From: Patescibacteria group bacterium
GTDB taxonomy: Bacteria > Patescibacteriota > Gracilibacteria > UBA1369
Assembly: GCA_963169815.1 (NCBI GenBank)
Contig: CAUJDC010000047.1
Span: 1 to 39,830 of the forward strand
DNA length: 39,830 nucleotides
Direction: 5' to 3'
A program made the position numbers and the translations under genes. Below the pieces are notes generated by a model, which did not search any database, was not told where the DNA came from, and saw only the letters and a list, made by a program, of their open reading frames with translations. Of the stretch, positions 28,288-36,281 are shown piece by piece. Every line of letters begins with the position of its first letter. The first letter of the stretch is position 1.

Positions 28288-28665
28288 ATGTTAAACAGTA
28301 CTTTAGAACTAGTTGTAGATAAAAAGACGAATCCTAATGTTTGGAAGGTGGATTTTTTTGGTAATCTTGATTCTTATAGCCTCCAGACAAAGAAAAAAGA
28401 GATTTTAGATTATATTGATTTGGTTGAACCAGCTACTCTGTTATTCGATTTTACAGGCTTAAACTTCATTAATAGTGAAAGCATTGGCTTAGTTTTGCAT
28501 ATCAGTGAAAAGTTAGCTGAAAAGAATAAGAAATTGGTATTAATTGGTGCTAAAAAGAATGTGTTCCAAGTTTTGGATGTAATTGGTGCATTCGAATTGA
28601 TACAGCATTATAAATCTTATGATGACTTCCTAAGAAATCAAGGTAATGCTAATCAGGCCAACTAA
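28288..28665 (+). CDS. STAS-domain anti-anti-sigma-like protein, Glu at the phosphoserine site
   Basis: The 125-residue product is a single STAS domain (LELVVDKKTNPN start, then LLFDFTGLNFINSESIGLVL). At the phospho-acceptor loop, where SpoIIAA has DSS, it has N62, S63 and E64, so the acceptor Ser is replaced by Glu, which could mimic the phosphorylated form. S63 and S65 remain. It is first in a transcript with the PP2C phosphatase, whose start overlaps its last 20 bases. In classical systems such a phosphatase dephosphorylates a STAS protein. The partner kinase is probably the ATPase at 25224. The family call is firm; the substitution comes from a by-eye alignment. Confidence 0.88.
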   Translation: MLNSTLELVVDKKTNPNVWKVDFFGNLDSYSLQTKKKEILDYIDLVEPATLLFDFTGLNFINSESIGLVLHISEKLAEKNKKLVLIGAKKNVFQVLDVIGAFELIQHYKSYDDFLRNQGNANQAN

Positions 28666-29836
28666 AAAGATATATTGGAATTTGCTGATGGTGAGCCTTT
28701 TTGCTATTGCGATGGCTCTTTTTTTAAAATTTGTACTTCAAATTGAATTTTGGCCTTGGCAATGGGTTATTGTGGCATTTATTGGATACTTCGCCGCAGT
28801 TATTCTGATTTATTTGATCAATGTAAGTTGGCCATTTAAAGTAGTTTTGGATCAAGTTAAGGCATTACTTACTGGTAGGAAATATAAAAAAATTCTGACT
28901 AAAAGAACTGATGAAATTGGCATTTTTGCCCACTTTTTCAATGAAGTAACAACAGATTTGGAAAAGGTGACTGTGGATTTGGAAGAAAGTAAAAAAGTTA
29001 GTGGTGAACTTAAAACTGCTGGGCAGCTTCAAAAAGAGCTTATTCCTGCATTGGCGCCTACTATTGAAGGATTTGATATTGCTGTTAAAAATAGATCTGC
29101 CGAAGAATTGGGTGGTGATAATTTGGATTTTATTAAAGTTGGCAATTCTACTTACTTTTATGTTGGTGATGTGACAGGTCATGGTGTACCAGCTGCGATT
29201 GTTATGACTATGGTTAATACACTGATTAATACTTTCGCAGAAATCTATGACACAGCCTATGATGTTGTGGTTCAGACAAATAGACGTTTGAAGACTAGAA
29301 TTAGGGCAACTATGTTTATGAGTATGTTAATGCTTAAATGGAATGGCCTAACAAAAAAAATGACTTATGTAGGTTGTGGTCATGAACATTTGATAGTTTA
29401 TAAGGCGAGAACAGGTTTAGTAGAGGCTACAGTAAGCGGCGGTATTGCTTTGGGTATGCTTGCTGATAATAGTAAAATCGTTAAAGAAAAAGATGTGCCA
29501 TTGGAAACTGGTGATGTGATAGTGCTTTATACTGATGGTATTACTGAGGCTAGAAACATGAACGGGGAAATGTTTGGCCTGGAAAGATTGAAACAAGTGG
29601 TAGCACTTTATGCTGGACAAGGAGATGCGCAACGGATTATTCAATCTATTGCTAAGGATTTTTCTAAATACGTGGAGGAGCATGTGCAAGAAGATGATGT
29701 GACTTTAATTGTAATTAAAAAATTAAGTGAAGGTGAGGAAGGAAGATCTTCTGTTGATCAAAAACAGGCTAGATGGACTGATGAAAATGCTGTGGATAAA
29801 GCAGAAACTTTGCCTACAGAAAAGGCTGCTGTATAA
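28646..29836 (+). CDS. Membrane-anchored PP2C (SpoIIE/RsbU-type) serine phosphatase with HAMP-like linker
   Basis: The 396-residue product has two N-terminal membrane helices (about 13-31 and 38-60), a HAMP-like linker and coiled coil (62-130), and a C-terminal PP2C/SpoIIE domain (135-360). Metal-binding acids include D158 in GGDNLDF, D175 in VGDVTGHG, D in LYTDGITEARN, and the DDVTL end. Phosphatases of this type dephosphorylate STAS proteins, freeing them to displace an anti-sigma factor. The short loop between the two helices leaves little room for an outside sensor. The gene overlaps the STAS gene by 20 bases, so the two are translated together. queA follows after 23 bases. The tail past residue 365 is polar and probably disordered. 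Confidence 0.9.
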   Translation: MLIRPTKKIYWNLLMVSLFAIAMALFLKFVLQIEFWPWQWVIVAFIGYFAAVILIYLINVSWPFKVVLDQVKALLTGRKYKKILTKRTDEIGIFAHFFNEVTTDLEKVTVDLEESKKVSGELKTAGQLQKELIPALAPTIEGFDIAVKNRSAEELGGDNLDFIKVGNSTYFYVGDVTGHGVPAAIVMTMVNTLINTFAEIYDTAYDVVVQTNRRLKTRIRATMFMSMLMLKWNGLTKKMTYVGCGHEHLIVYKARTGLVEATVSGGIALGMLADNSKIVKEKDVPLETGDVIVLYTDGITEARNMNGEMFGLERLKQVVALYAGQGDAQRIIQSIAKDFSKYVEEHVQEDDVTLIVIKKLSEGEEGRSSVDQKQARWTDENAVDKAETLPTEKAAV

Positions 29837-30879: not shown

Positions 30880-33243
30880 TTATTTTAACCAATTTGGCAA
30901 AATAATCTGATCGTAATTTAGAGAGTTGATGTTTTTGATATAAGGCAAATCTTTCAAATTGTATTTTCCAAAATACAGTTCGCGCAAATCTCCGCCCTTT
31001 TCTACGAATTTTTTTATGGATTGATAGCCTCTATAATAAAGATAATCCTTGGTAAAGGCTCCATGATTGGCCGTATCGTGTAAACCTCTTTTTACTCTTA
31101 AACAAATATTTAAAGCGGCTTTTTTAGTAAGCTTATTTGCTCTGAGGCTGCTGTAGAGCTCTGAGAATGAATGATTTGTGGAGAGATAAATGGCTTCAAT
31201 TAGCCTGTTCTTTGGGCTTTCTAAACCTGGCTGACTAGCTCTTGAACGTATATTATAGATGGCCAAGCCTTCCTGTGTTTCTAGATAATTAGCAAAACCT
31301 AATTGGAAAAGTTTAAATTTTTGGCGACTGCCATTTTCATTAGTTAATAGATGAGTTTCCAATTCATGAGTGATTAGTTCTTCAGCACGGCTTTTAGTAA
31401 AAAGTAGGTTGTTTCTCAAAATAACGTGCTTATTTTTGTTGGTTATACAATGCGTAAGTATTCTTTTGCTAATATTAACTTTCCAGTATTTTAGGCCGTA
31501 TTCGCGAATTTTCTCTTCAAAAATTGATTTAAGTTCTTCAGAAGTAATATTTTTTTCTTCTTTTTTACGCTTAATCTTTTTGAATGAAAATGTTACCAGA
31601 TCTTCTGCTGTGGGCATGCCGAAAAGCCTTGTGGATATTTCTGTAAATTCTTTTGACCCTCTTACCTTAATTAATTCTGCATACAGAGCTAGTTCTTCGA
31701 TTCTTTCTTTAAAAAGATATCCTAAATCGCTGTCATCATAGTGGATTTTTTTGAGACTTTTGATTGTTTGCTCGTATTCCCCAGCGTAATCATGATATTT
31801 GAATTGGGGATTGTAGCTATTGTCTTGAAGGAATTTTGTTAGCTCTTCTTTTTGGTTAATTGGTCTCAAATGACTGAGAAATTTCATTTGATTATTGATT
31901 CGGCAAATCTGTCTATCTGTTTCGATTGGATTATAGTGAGAAACAAAAATATTACTTTTCTTACCAGTATTTTTTTCTGTAATGAAATTATTAATTGATG
32001 TGTCGATAAGAAAGTTTCCAGTAATATCTTTATTGCCAATCACTACTTGGTACTTTTTTCTGATGTTCTTATCTATTTTGAAGCTGGAAATGATTTTTTT
32101 CCCATTTAGTCTATATTTGAGGGTGGCTCTGACAGTGTCTAGGTCCTTGGCTTTTTTAGATTTAATTAGACCAAGTTGCTTGGCAAGTTCGGTACTTAAA
32201 TAGTTTTTTTTGCGTGATGTGTTAATAAAAGCAATTGCCTCGGTTTGCTTTTGAGGCTCTATGAATTCTACTTTTTCGAATAAGCCAATTACTTTCTTGC
32301 CTGAAATTGTTTTAATGTTTTTTTCGATAGAATATCCAAAGAGGTCTTTACCGATTCTAATCCCCTTCTCTACGCTGTTTAGATTGATGTCTGCAAGTTG
32401 TTCTAGACGTTTACGTAAAGGAGTGAGATTGGCTAATTGTATGCCAATACCGGCTCTGGCGTTTATTTCCAATAAAACTGGTCCGTTGGTTTTATCGATA
32501 GCTATGTCGGCTCCTAGGTAGCCCAAATTACTAGCTAATTGAGCTTTACAGGCAATACGTAGTGCTTCTTCCCAGAAAGGAATTTTGAGTCCTTTGATGC
32601 TGCCTTTACCAGGTATTTCCTTAATAATCTTTCCATGATGAATGAGATGTGTAATTTCTCCCTTGGCAATATCAATGCCAGCGCCGATGGCGCCTTGATG
32701 CAAATTTGCTTTGCCGTTTGATTCAGTGGTGGGGAGCCTTAGCATCGCCATTACTGGGACCATTTTATGGACAATAATGCGGATGTCTGGAAGTCCAAAT
32801 GTACTATATTTTCCTAAGACTTCATCTGTCACGATTAGTTTTTCAAAAAGCGCTTTGTCTGGTTTATCAGAAATAGCAAAATTTCCTGAAAGTATTTCTC
32901 TAACATGCTGAGTCAAATCTTTTTCGCTGTAACGTACTCCTTTGGCTGTAAAGTAATAACCATTTTCTTTATAAGTAATCGGTATGATGCCTTCGCCACC
33001 GAAGCCTAGATTGGGCTTAATAACAAATTCATGTCCCAATTTTGCCCATTTAAAGTTTAGTAATTGCTTATTATTTTCAATTAAGCCAAGTAGTCTAGGG
33101 ACTGGAATCTCACGGGCTGATAAAAATGCTTTGGTCTTTAACTTATCGTCTGCAATTTCAACGTTTTTTTCGGCGTTGAATGGTTTAATATACAATAAAT
33201 TTCGGGCATTGATGCCTAAAATGGAGTTAGCTCTGAATGGCAT
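30880..33243 (-). CDS. ATP-grasp ligase fused to retropepsin-like and DUF1704/MATCAP-type metallopeptidase domains
   Basis: The 787-residue product joins three modules. Residues 1-290 are an ATP-grasp ligase of the RimK/alpha-L-glutamate-ligase-like type, with EFVIKPNLGFGGEG (K76) and the metal-binding ExN in LLEINARAG (E259, N261). Residues about 318-420 resemble the retropepsin-like domain often found beside such ligases, but where a DTG motif is expected the text is INTS (N341), so it is probably inactive. Residues about 450-787 match DUF1704, the MATCAP-type metallopeptidase family, with HELETH (626-631) and TQEGLA (656-661). The known order is ligase, protease-like domain, peptidase. It lies one base after the 7TM gene in the same direction. 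Substrate unknown; a writer and eraser of amino-acid tags is inference. Confidence 0.85.
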   Translation of the reverse strand: MPFRANSILGINARNLLYIKPFNAEKNVEIADDKLKTKAFLSAREIPVPRLLGLIENNKQLLNFKWAKLGHEFVIKPNLGFGGEGIIPITYKENGYYFTAKGVRYSEKDLTQHVREILSGNFAISDKPDKALFEKLIVTDEVLGKYSTFGLPDIRIIVHKMVPVMAMLRLPTTESNGKANLHQGAIGAGIDIAKGEITHLIHHGKIIKEIPGKGSIKGLKIPFWEEALRIACKAQLASNLGYLGADIAIDKTNGPVLLEINARAGIGIQLANLTPLRKRLEQLADINLNSVEKGIRIGKDLFGYSIEKNIKTISGKKVIGLFEKVEFIEPQKQTEAIAFINTSRKKNYLSTELAKQLGLIKSKKAKDLDTVRATLKYRLNGKKIISSFKIDKNIRKKYQVVIGNKDITGNFLIDTSINNFITEKNTGKKSNIFVSHYNPIETDRQICRINNQMKFLSHLRPINQKEELTKFLQDNSYNPQFKYHDYAGEYEQTIKSLKKIHYDDSDLGYLFKERIEELALYAELIKVRGSKEFTEISTRLFGMPTAEDLVTFSFKKIKRKKEEKNITSEELKSIFEEKIREYGLKYWKVNISKRILTHCITNKNKHVILRNNLLFTKSRAEELITHELETHLLTNENGSRQKFKLFQLGFANYLETQEGLAIYNIRSRASQPGLESPKNRLIEAIYLSTNHSFSELYSSLRANKLTKKAALNICLRVKRGLHDTANHGAFTKDYLYYRGYQSIKKFVEKGGDLRELYFGKYNLKDLPYIKNINSLNYDQIILPNWLK

Positions 33244-33244
33244 A

Positions 33245-33997
33245 TTATTTCTTAAAGATTAAGTCTCTAAAACGAATTAACTCACTGATTCTTAGGCCAG
33301 TGTATCTGCCAATTAGAAGGTTAAGAATTACGCAAACTGAGATTATTTCCGGAAAAAAAATGATAAAATCTTTGATTACTGTCCAATGAAAACTGAATAA
33401 TCCGCCTCCCAAAAAAAGATAAATTGCTAAGCTAAATAGACTAGTCTTAAAAAGGTTTTTAAAGTCTGTCAAGAGGCCACTTTGGGTCATTTTAAATGAC
33501 AAAAACTTCTCTGTAATAAGGGCTAAAGTTATGATTATTATTGAAATGGAAGGTAAGGTAATTGAAGAAATTTGGTAATTTGCTATCAAGAGAGGTGCGA
33601 GTAGAAGTATCAATATGAACACCAGATTAACTATAATTGGCATTTTAACTGAAAAATGTAAATGAAGTTCATTGAGTAGATACTTTATAAAAAGCGCCGT
33701 AACTGCTGATCCTATAAAGATGATTCCGGTTAAAATTGGGCCTAAAAGAAAACAACAGGCCACTAAAATTGATGGTACGATAATAGAAGTTACGTTTAAG
33801 CCAACCATTATCCTAAAAGTGGCTATGATTAGAGCTATACAAGGTGTTATTAAAAGTAAGTACACTTGATCGATATTTACGCCAAGTTGTACTAAATGAC
33901 TGATTGAGATGCGGAAAAGACCGAAAAATGCTGGTATTAAGCCTAAAAGTACAATTAAGCCTCCAAAAAATATATTTTTTACAAGATTTTTGTCCAT
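33245..33997 (-). CDS. 7TM membrane protein of the 7TM_transglut group, without the transglutaminase domain
   Basis: The 250-residue product is almost entirely hydrophobic, with about seven membrane helices. It ends in the conserved GRYTGLRISELIRFRDLIF tail. In many bacteria this 7TM block is joined to an inactive transglutaminase domain and encoded beside an ATP-grasp ligase and a retropepsin-like protease. Here only the membrane part exists, and the ligase gene follows after one base, so the pair is surely cotranscribed. An amphipathic loop (NELHLHFSVKMP) links the middle helices. It probably anchors or scaffolds the fusion enzyme at the membrane or forms a channel for its substrate; this is inference. 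It diverges from the surface-protein gene. The promoter must lie in the 73-base gap, but I see no strong match on this strand. Confidence 0.8.
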   Translation of the reverse strand: MDKNLVKNIFFGGLIVLLGLIPAFFGLFRISISHLVQLGVNIDQVYLLLITPCIALIIATFRIMVGLNVTSIIVPSILVACCFLLGPILTGIIFIGSAVTALFIKYLLNELHLHFSVKMPIIVNLVFILILLLAPLLIANYQISSITLPSISIIIITLALITEKFLSFKMTQSGLLTDFKNLFKTSLFSLAIYLFLGGGLFSFHWTVIKDFIIFFPEIISVCVILNLLIGRYTGLRISELIRFRDLIFKK

Positions 33998-34041: not shown

Positions 34042-34070
34042 GAATGGATTTAAAAATAAACAAAAAAGCT

Positions 34071-36281
34071 ATGGTTTTCAATCAAAATAAACTGCAGCTC
34101 AAAATAAAGACTATTTCTCTTCTGACTGCGATATTGTTGCTATCTGGACAAATGCTTTCTATTGCACAGGCTGCCAACTATGTTTTTGGCCAAGATACAG
34201 TCGCTGGAGTGCCTACTCTGATCAAGGCGAGAGGATTTTCTCCAAATCAGGCTTTAAATTTACATTTAGTCAAACCAGATGGTGTAGACCTCGGAATGGC
34301 TACTAAGGCAAATCAAGCAGGAGAGGCTGATACTGTAGTTGATGGTTATCATACTACAAAAGCAGGTACTTACTTTGCCTATGCCAGCTCTGGTAACTTA
34401 ACTACTTCTCAAATCAGTTTCACTGTATTTGCTGGAGAAATTGATGAAAATAAATCTGAAGTTGAATTAAGCAGAGCAGTAGTTGCCGCAGATGGACGGG
34501 ATAACGCTACCATTTCTCTTCTAATGAAAGATGCTTATGGTAATCCAGTTGAGGGTAAAGCTATGAAATTAATTCCGAGTAAAAAAGCTGCCATTATTTC
34601 TCCTAATGTGGCTGTTTCTGATAAGGAAGGTAAGGCAAGCTTTACGGTAAAGTCTAGTCAGATAGGTTTGATTAATTTCACTGTAATGGACACCACTGCT
34701 GACCTTTATCTGGAAAATCATCCGGAAGTTTCATTTGTAAGTGGGGGTGAATATTTGGCGGACGCTGGTGGCGATATGATTAAGATTGCTAATGCAGCAG
34801 GTCCACTTGCTGGTTTTGAAATCACGGATATGCCGGCTTCTATTAAACCAAGTGAAAATGTTACATTTAAAGTTAAGGCTGTTGATGCTTCTAAAGAAAT
34901 CGTTCAAGATTATACTGGTACAATTAGATTTTCTGCAGAAGGCACTGATAGTTCTGGTGTAGCTCTTCCTGCTAATTATAAGTTTTTAGCTGAAGACTTA
35001 GGCCAGCATCAATTCAATTTAGGTTTAAGCTTTGCAAAAGCTGGTAGCTATAAAATTTCTGTCAATGATTTAACAGACAAGCTTAAAAAAGGTGAAATTA
35101 ATGTAACTGTATCTTCTGGTACTTCTACAACTACTACTAGTTCAAGTGGTGATAAACCAGTAATTTCAGCCCCAGCGGCTGGTACTTATAGCCAAGCTGA
35201 GCAAACTGTGACTGGTACTGCTAAACCCAGTTCATCTGTGAAGATTATGGATAATAACGCAGAACTGGCTAGTGTTCCAGTAGGACCTACAGGAAAATTC
35301 TCTTATCAAACCTCTGCTCTTGCAGAAGGTAAACATTCTATTTATGTGGTTAATATAGACGCTATTTCTCTGGAAGTAATCAGTAATTCTGATCCTGTAG
35401 AAATCAATATTGATACTACTCCTCCGGCATTAGACGACATTGTACTTGATCCAAGCGAAGGTATTAAGCCCGGTGATGTCATTAATGTGAAAGTATATAG
35501 CGAAAAGAACCTTTCTCAAGTGGCGTTGTTATTTAACTATGACATAGTTCAGTTGAATGCTAGTTTAGATGATGCATCAGTATATGTTGGTACAATTCAG
35601 GCCCCAGCTGATCCGGGAGAATATAAACTTGGAGTGCTGGTTGCTGATGAATTAAGTAATGAAAAGACTTATGAAGAACAGGCTACTGTTAAAGTAGTGG
35701 CTGGTGGTGAAGGCACTATTGATAAAAATCCAGACTTGGGACCTGCCACTCCAACTGACACAACAACAACGCCTGAAGATACTAGCGGCGAAGTTAAGCC
35801 TGCAGCTGGAGCTCCTTCAACTGTATCAGGCTTGATTGCCTATGGATCAGATAAAAAAGTAACTTTGGTTTGGGATGCTGCTACAGACGATAAAAAAGTT
35901 CAGAACTATAAAGTTTATTATGGTCAGACTGTCGAGGCTATGGCTCAGGTGGCTTTGACTAAAGATGCTAGCACAACTTGGTACATTCCGAATTTGGAAA
36001 ATGGTAAAGAATATTTTTTCGCAGTAAGCGCGGTTGATGATGAAGGTAATGAGAGTTCTGCTAAGAGTGAAATTGTTAGCGGCATTCCATTTGTACTAGA
36101 AGTGAACAATGCGCTCACAGAAAAACCTACTAAACCTTTAGATGACCCTGTTCTTCATGAAGCAGCTTATAATGGCCCATTCCCTACAAATACCTCTAAA
36201 ACTGGTCCTGAATTGATTCTATTGATCGGCGCAAGTGGGCTTGGTTCCTCAGTCTGGTTTTCTAGAAAAAAGAAAAAATAA
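34071..36281 (+). CDS. Secreted multidomain surface protein with Ig-like and FN3 domains and C-terminal anchor
   Basis: The 736-residue product starts at the ATG at 34071 with a signal peptide (basic NKLQLKIK, hydrophobic core, likely cut after AQA near residue 34). A first extracellular region is followed by a Big/invasin-like Ig domain (about 125-220, with VAADGRDNATISLLMKDAYG). Further beta-rich Ig-like modules follow, the second after a Thr/Ser-rich linker (SSGTSTTTTSSSGDKP). After a Thr/Pro linker (TPTDTTTTPEDTSG) comes a fibronectin type III domain (about 580-672, TLVWDAATDDKKVQNYKVYYG). The C-terminus has TSKTGPE, a membrane helix and a basic end (RKKKK), like a sortase signal but with the LP of LPxTG missing. 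Likely role: surface structure or adhesion. It has a strong promoter. Confidence 0.88.
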   Translation: MVFNQNKLQLKIKTISLLTAILLLSGQMLSIAQAANYVFGQDTVAGVPTLIKARGFSPNQALNLHLVKPDGVDLGMATKANQAGEADTVVDGYHTTKAGTYFAYASSGNLTTSQISFTVFAGEIDENKSEVELSRAVVAADGRDNATISLLMKDAYGNPVEGKAMKLIPSKKAAIISPNVAVSDKEGKASFTVKSSQIGLINFTVMDTTADLYLENHPEVSFVSGGEYLADAGGDMIKIANAAGPLAGFEITDMPASIKPSENVTFKVKAVDASKEIVQDYTGTIRFSAEGTDSSGVALPANYKFLAEDLGQHQFNLGLSFAKAGSYKISVNDLTDKLKKGEINVTVSSGTSTTTTSSSGDKPVISAPAAGTYSQAEQTVTGTAKPSSSVKIMDNNAELASVPVGPTGKFSYQTSALAEGKHSIYVVNIDAISLEVISNSDPVEINIDTTPPALDDIVLDPSEGIKPGDVINVKVYSEKNLSQVALLFNYDIVQLNASLDDASVYVGTIQAPADPGEYKLGVLVADELSNEKTYEEQATVKVVAGGEGTIDKNPDLGPATPTDTTTTPEDTSGEVKPAAGAPSTVSGLIAYGSDKKVTLVWDAATDDKKVQNYKVYYGQTVEAMAQVALTKDASTTWYIPNLENGKEYFFAVSAVDDEGNESSAKSEIVSGIPFVLEVNNALTEKPTKPLDDPVLHEAAYNGPFPTNTSKTGPELILLIGASGLGSSVWFSRKKKK

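Follow-up and report, generated by a model that had tools for sequence, protein, structure and literature searches.

A predicted RimK/RloC-type ligase fused to a MATCAP-type metallopeptidase and paired with a 7TM protein in Gracilibacteria and related Patescibacteria

MATCAP-type peptidases have been studied as animal tubulin enzymes. The TMCP/MATCAP enzymes process tubulin tails and carry out deglutamylation (PMC10499314). Among the Rim proteins, RimK adds glutamate to the tail of RpsF, and RimB removes it and stimulates both the ATPase and the poly-Glu synthesis of RimK; a natural RimBK hybrid exists, and when RimB is present RimK also produces free poly-alpha-L-glutamate, whose length reaches 28-36 units (PMC11957791). 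In the rlo operon of Pseudomonas (RloA-RloB-RloC), the secreted peptidase RloA cleaves poly-Glu, RloC is cytosolic, and losing RloB or RloC rescues cells that lack RloA; the distribution of RloB is reported as 96% proteobacterial (PMC12239564).

The window analysed here, a stretch of 39,830 nucleotides from a Patescibacteria genome of 1.09 Mb, holds on the minus strand a 787-aa fusion protein (30880..33243), composed of an ATP-grasp ligase, a pseudo-retropepsin and a MATCAP metallopeptidase, and a 250-aa 7TM protein (33245..33997, PF14402) whose gene lies upstream with a spacing of one base. The original prediction gave the coordinates, ORF lengths and one-base gap of this pair correctly, and its domain identities are supported by matches to Pfam (PF14397, PF08014 and PF14402) and NCBIfam models. 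The system is not wholly new: parts familiar from Pseudomonas and from animal tubulin biology are arranged in a new way. By analogy it is, on balance, probably a writer/eraser unit that is linked to the membrane and akin to the poly-glutamate systems Rlo and Rim. Its cytosolic ATP-grasp domain would ligate amino acids, likeliest L-glutamate, onto a peptide or a C-terminal tail, the MATCAP domain of the same chain would act as a metallo-carboxypeptidase trimming the added residues, and the 7TM protein would tether the unit to the membrane. A writer and an eraser in one chain had been proposed at the outset, and this predicted reading finds support in the domain identities and the conserved catalytic residues. 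The fusion protein is probably cytosolic, as no signal peptide or TM segment is evident in its 787 residues. Its AlphaFold2 model has a mean pLDDT of 83 and a pTM of 0.49, and with this whole-chain pTM the arrangement of the domains in the model is not reliable.

All of the parts are already known, as are the grouping of ligase, retropepsin and 7TM protein in rlo and the fusion of ligase and retropepsin in RimBK (PMC11957791). The rlo operon, compared here in its Aeromonas form (locus L185), and the window contain the same three families, 7TM_transglut, PF14397/TIGR02291 ATP-grasp and PF05618 retropepsin, which bears out the link drawn earlier to systems encoding such proteins in separate genes. 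However, RloA is a separate, secreted and active aspartic protease, whereas the retropepsin of the window is internal, cytosolic and decayed; RloB carries an inactive transglutaminase ectodomain (PF14400), whereas the 7TM proteins of the fusion unit carry a PKD and a Rossmann-like domain or none; and the Aeromonas operon is without a MATCAP gene, which in the fusion unit is joined to the ligase. RimB-RimK and RimBK likewise pair a glutamate ligase, here a putative one, with a retropepsin, but in RimBK the retropepsin is N-terminal and active and there is neither a MATCAP domain nor a 7TM partner, and RimK acts on S6. The animal enzymes MATCAP1/TMCP1 and TMCP2 (KIAA0895L and KIAA0895) have the same fold and metal-site motif as the window protein, and acidic C-terminal tails as substrate are a proposed further parallel. 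In contrast to the fusion, which carries its own ligase, they are stand-alone proteins that act on tubulin, where the ligases they counteract, TTL/TTLL, are separate enzymes. Proteobacterial QEGLA proteins (TIGR02421), of about 630-660 aa, contain the MATCAP domain as in the window, separate from the ligase. The Sinorhizobium QEGLA gene lies between genes for an N-formylglutamate amidohydrolase and a glutathione-synthetase-like ATP-grasp protein, and on a Photobacterium replicon a glutathione-synthetase-like ATP-grasp gene is directly upstream of a stand-alone QEGLA gene; MATCAP therefore accompanies ATP-grasp ligases more than once.

An earlier mention of gene neighbourhoods of this kind would most likely be in the 2009 work of Iyer et al. 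on amidoligases. A literature search made without that work found no account of the three-domain fusion, of the PKD form or of an operon of this type that includes MATCAP, did not find MATCAP, bacteria and ATP-grasp treated together, and found no assigned substrate for bacterial MATCAP relatives; the MATCAP/DUF1704 family is not named in PMC4431377 or PMC8939145. The conserved fusion with a RimK-like ligase and the separate-gene versions described below provide a direct functional partner for bacterial MATCAP, suggest that the opposition of ligase and MATCAP may predate tubulin modification, and extend Rlo-type systems beyond Proteobacteria.

The ATP-grasp ligase domain (aa 4-284, 32392..33234, minus strand) is identified by PF14397, TIGR02291, its residues and a fold match to RimK. 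ATPgrasp_ST PF14397 matches aa 14-282 with E=4.7e-65 and 220 bits against a cut-off of 31.4. TIGR02291, the RloC-type model, is by far the best NCBIfam ligase model for the protein (E=6.4e-79), which at 265.2 bits misses its curated cut-off of 314.2, and the RimK model scores far lower (E=1.4e-11). K76, the glycine loop G80-G85, E134, R169, D246, E259 and N261 are invariant in all 93 fused relatives, among them the three residues on which the ligase had originally been recognised (K76, E259 and N261). RimK poly-alpha-L-glutamate synthetase is the first-ranked ligase in a fold search with the window model (aa 7-288, Z 16.2, rmsd 3.5, 209 aligned); the fold is common to D-Ala-D-Ala ligases and LysX/ArgX as well. 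The domain is thus of the RimK/RloC type and a predicted ligase; glutamate as the added residue does not follow from sequence alone and is probable by analogy with these relatives.

The MATCAP/QEGLA metallopeptidase domain (aa 443-773, 30925..31917, minus strand) is matched by PF08014 (DUF1704; E=1.2e-48, aa 473-773, 166 bits against a cut-off of 27) and by QEGLA TIGR02421 (E=1.1e-49), whose equivalog cut-off is missed (169.7 vs 338.65 bits), and the window model matches human MATCAP over aa 456-787 (Z 24.3, rmsd 2.8, 277 aligned). The HExxxH metal-binding/catalytic motif HELETH (aa 626-631, 31351..31368, minus strand) aligns with HEIGTH of human MATCAP, and QEGLA (aa 657-661, 31261..31275, minus strand), which includes E658, resembles the EEG motif of TMCP1. 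H626, E627, H631 and E658 are conserved in 92-93 of the 93 fused relatives, so that the two histidines named in the original prediction proved invariant or nearly so, and both of its motifs are conserved. Its metal site stands as far as H626 and H631 are concerned, and the "distal Glu" is refined to E658 within QEGLA itself, which is probably the third metal ligand if the EEG motif of TMCP1/MATCAP serves as a guide (PMC10499314). The domain would work in the carboxypeptidase direction.

Between the two lies a decayed retropepsin-like domain (aa 314-416, 31996..32304, minus strand), delimited by profile alignment to unfused relatives containing PF05618, in which INTS (aa 340-343, 32215..32226, minus strand) aligns with the catalytic DTG position. 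On its own, this domain of the window has no PF05618 match in Pfam, and the retropepsin homology proposed for it emerges through the unfused homologues of other Patescibacteria. These read like AKIDTGAxxTSI and IIGRxDLKxFLVDP, three of them (L176, L169 and L173) match PF05618 above the cut-off, and their profile matches two crystal structures of RloA, 9g59 (E=3.6e-7) and 9g58, both reported in PMC12239564. Because these relatives match PF05618 and RloA, and because the profile of the fused domain aligns with theirs (99.7% probability; reversed control 0.2%), the middle domain is regarded as retropepsin-like. The catalytic Asp of D(T/S)G is absent from the window protein, in agreement with the dead retropepsin foreseen in the original prediction. 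D(T/S)G is intact in 9 of 11 unfused proteins, one of which (L170_U_8293) is a doubtful member, versus 9 of 93 fused ones, and these nine fused proteins are without a segment that the unfused forms have. The domain would be a former hydrolase, as in RimB and RloA, which may have lost its active site after the MATCAP fusion and was most likely kept as a ligase activator or scaffold. Two variants were also seen: in a 921-aa relative (L173:7411-10176) the ligase and PF05618 are followed by one more ATP-grasp domain (PF02655, aa 595-775), and at L181:5573-7669 a weak MATCAP-like protein adjoins a small separate PF05618 protein with an intact DTGA.

The 250-aa partner matches 7TM_transglut PF14402 (E=4.7e-13, 49.6 bits against a cut-off of 25) and, as had been noted, is a 7TM protein without a transglutaminase domain: PF14400, present in the Aeromonas control, matches neither the window protein nor any of four full-length relatives, all of which have a PKD domain, and the RloB model NF052267 gives the window protein 18.8 bits against a cut-off of 900. 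In most relatives the 7TM partner has ~500-540 aa, with a signal-peptide-like start followed by a PKD domain (PF18911/PF00801), a Rossmann-like domain and the 7TM part. In a structure model of such a full-length PKD-7TM partner (pLDDT 85.5), residues 40-123 match PKD (Z 14.8) and residues 123-283 give a weak Rossmann-type match to the GluR2 ATD (Z 9.8, 129 aligned), with no transglutaminase core among the matches listed, of which the best is itself weak. Alignment leaves only the 7TM part in the window and two close relatives, and the window copy has lost the PKD and Rossmann-like ectodomain of most relatives. Where present, the extracellular PKD and Rossmann-like domain may sense a signal.

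The 7TM proteins end in Glu-Glu in 86 of 98 cases, compared with 8 of 855 other proteins of the same loci, counts that are non-independent trials since the sequences are related. One odd ORF (L023/L088), taken as 7TM in part of the tail counts, is probably a neighbouring gene. Among controls from the same loci, 2 of 153 upstream genes with tight spacing and none of 72 polytopic proteins end in this way; the ending is mostly absent in unfused relatives (2/10) and is missing from Aeromonas RloB and from the window's subclade. A Shine-Dalgarno origin of the tail was considered and rejected: the codons are mainly GAAGAA (50/86), start distances vary, and of the 153 other upstream genes spaced as tightly only 2 end likewise. 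Given the extracellular N-terminal domain and seven helices, the C-terminal tail would be cytosolic. As it ends in Glu-Glu in 86 of 98 proteins, it is a named candidate substrate, and the likely target in most of the clade would be this tail of the 7TM protein itself; with the loss of the tail in the window's subclade, this proposed substrate cannot apply there. In that subclade (window 33245-33997, L032 and L033) the ectodomain and the Glu-Glu tail are lost together and ligase-domain branches are longer (0.33-0.39 vs a median of 0.15), which suggests a functional shift.

The survey for the same fusion in other genomes that the original prediction called for found it in 37 of the 59 relatives searched, which covers 31 of 46 genera; PF14402 is present in 34 of the 59, and all 34 also hold the fusion. 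In a search of genome contigs, all 80 fetched loci, nearly all from Peregrinibacteria, Peribacteria, Gracilibacteria or other Patescibacteria records, contain the fusion, and in 68 the 7TM gene is directly adjacent. The fusion is a conserved architecture of Peregrinibacteria, Peribacteria and Gracilibacteria, not a local oddity. Across the phylum, a MATCAP protein occurs in 40 of 192 sampled genomes, and in several lineages other than those with the fusion (L166, L167, L168, L172 and L176) the parts are separate neighbouring genes in the order PKD-7TM, ATP-grasp plus retropepsin, MATCAP, so that the link does not depend on fusion alone. Typical Peregrinibacteria-type loci also turned up in records titled Nitrospirota (L073) and Kiritimatiellales (L123), which are probably mis-binned contigs.

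A tree of the ligase domain, from a quick search and with some long branches, separates fused from unfused proteins by one change (SH-aLRT 100), and the D(T/S)G pattern on it needs at least 12 changes. The sequences show a single fusion event, followed by repeated erosion of the retropepsin motif. As the fusion arose once, all fused genomes represent one evolutionary event for any correlation linked to it. The pattern is most simply read as a hydrolase role that passed from the aspartic to the metallopeptidase, the aspartic domain being disarmed after the metallopeptidase had joined; a switch of the ligase's antagonist from one peptidase type to the other is the best reading.

A tentative and rather unlikely extension of the writer/eraser reading is a bacterial counterpart of the tubulin code, in which the cytosolic Glu-Glu tail of a membrane receptor-like protein would be lengthened by the ligase and shortened by the MATCAP peptidase of one chain and an outside signal stored as length; the tail would then have become fixed with the fusion, and loss of the receptor's ectodomain would have gone along with its renewed loss. 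With a similarly limited chance, the unit may instead produce free poly-alpha-glutamate or another peptide, with export or coupling to the envelope by the 7TM protein, as the rlo system of Pseudomonas may also do, and recycling by MATCAP inside, no tail being modified. RimK with RimB does make such a polymer, of up to 28-36 units (PMC11957791), Pseudomonas secretes the peptidase but keeps RloC in the cytosol (PMC12239564), so that something may cross the membrane, and the window's subclade without a Glu-Glu tail would fit. However, this account leaves the conserved tail unexplained, and it is opposed by the absence of any separate PF05618 protein above the cut-off in the 59 relatives and by the location of all enzyme domains here in a single chain that has no signal peptide.

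Less likely still is another amino acid or a small-molecule acceptor, such as a coenzyme, a cell-wall precursor or a surface-sugar peptide, with MATCAP as a pathway peptidase and neither glutamate nor tails involved. The sugar-transfer association for which PF14397 is named, the fold held in common with D-Ala-D-Ala ligases and LysX/ArgX, and the Sinorhizobium MATCAP gene next to a glutathione-synthetase-like ATP-grasp gene, by which MATCAP accompanies other ligases, would agree with it, but RimK is the top ligase by fold, the best family model is of the RloC type, and the family of the fused retropepsin has tested members that cut poly-Glu. That the unit is a RimK/RimB-like system modifying ribosomal protein S6, with MATCAP replacing RimB, is very improbable: RimK and RimB do have this ligase fold and this retropepsin domain, yet the C-terminus of S6 in the window genome is ...EEKEKKAA and not Glu, the RloC family model (E 6.4e-79) far outscores that of RimK (E 1.4e-11), and Rim systems have no 7TM partner.

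Several other genes recur around the pair. One of them (34044-36281, plus strand), transcribed divergently from the 7TM gene and conserved beside it in about 20 of the loci read, encodes a secreted-looking protein of 745 aa that combines Big_1/invasin-D3-like and fn3 domains and has a hydrophobic segment near its C-terminus, after which comes RKKKK. Genes for a SpoIIE/RsbU-type phosphatase and a STAS-like protein (28288-29836, plus strand) are found near the fusion in many relatives, often accompanied by an MFS and HEAT-repeat protein of about 800 aa. In four relatives, a class IV aminotransferase-like gene lies directly upstream of the PKD-7TM gene (L036:10674-11561, with similar ORFs in L047, L048 and L059; the profile match is on L036 only).
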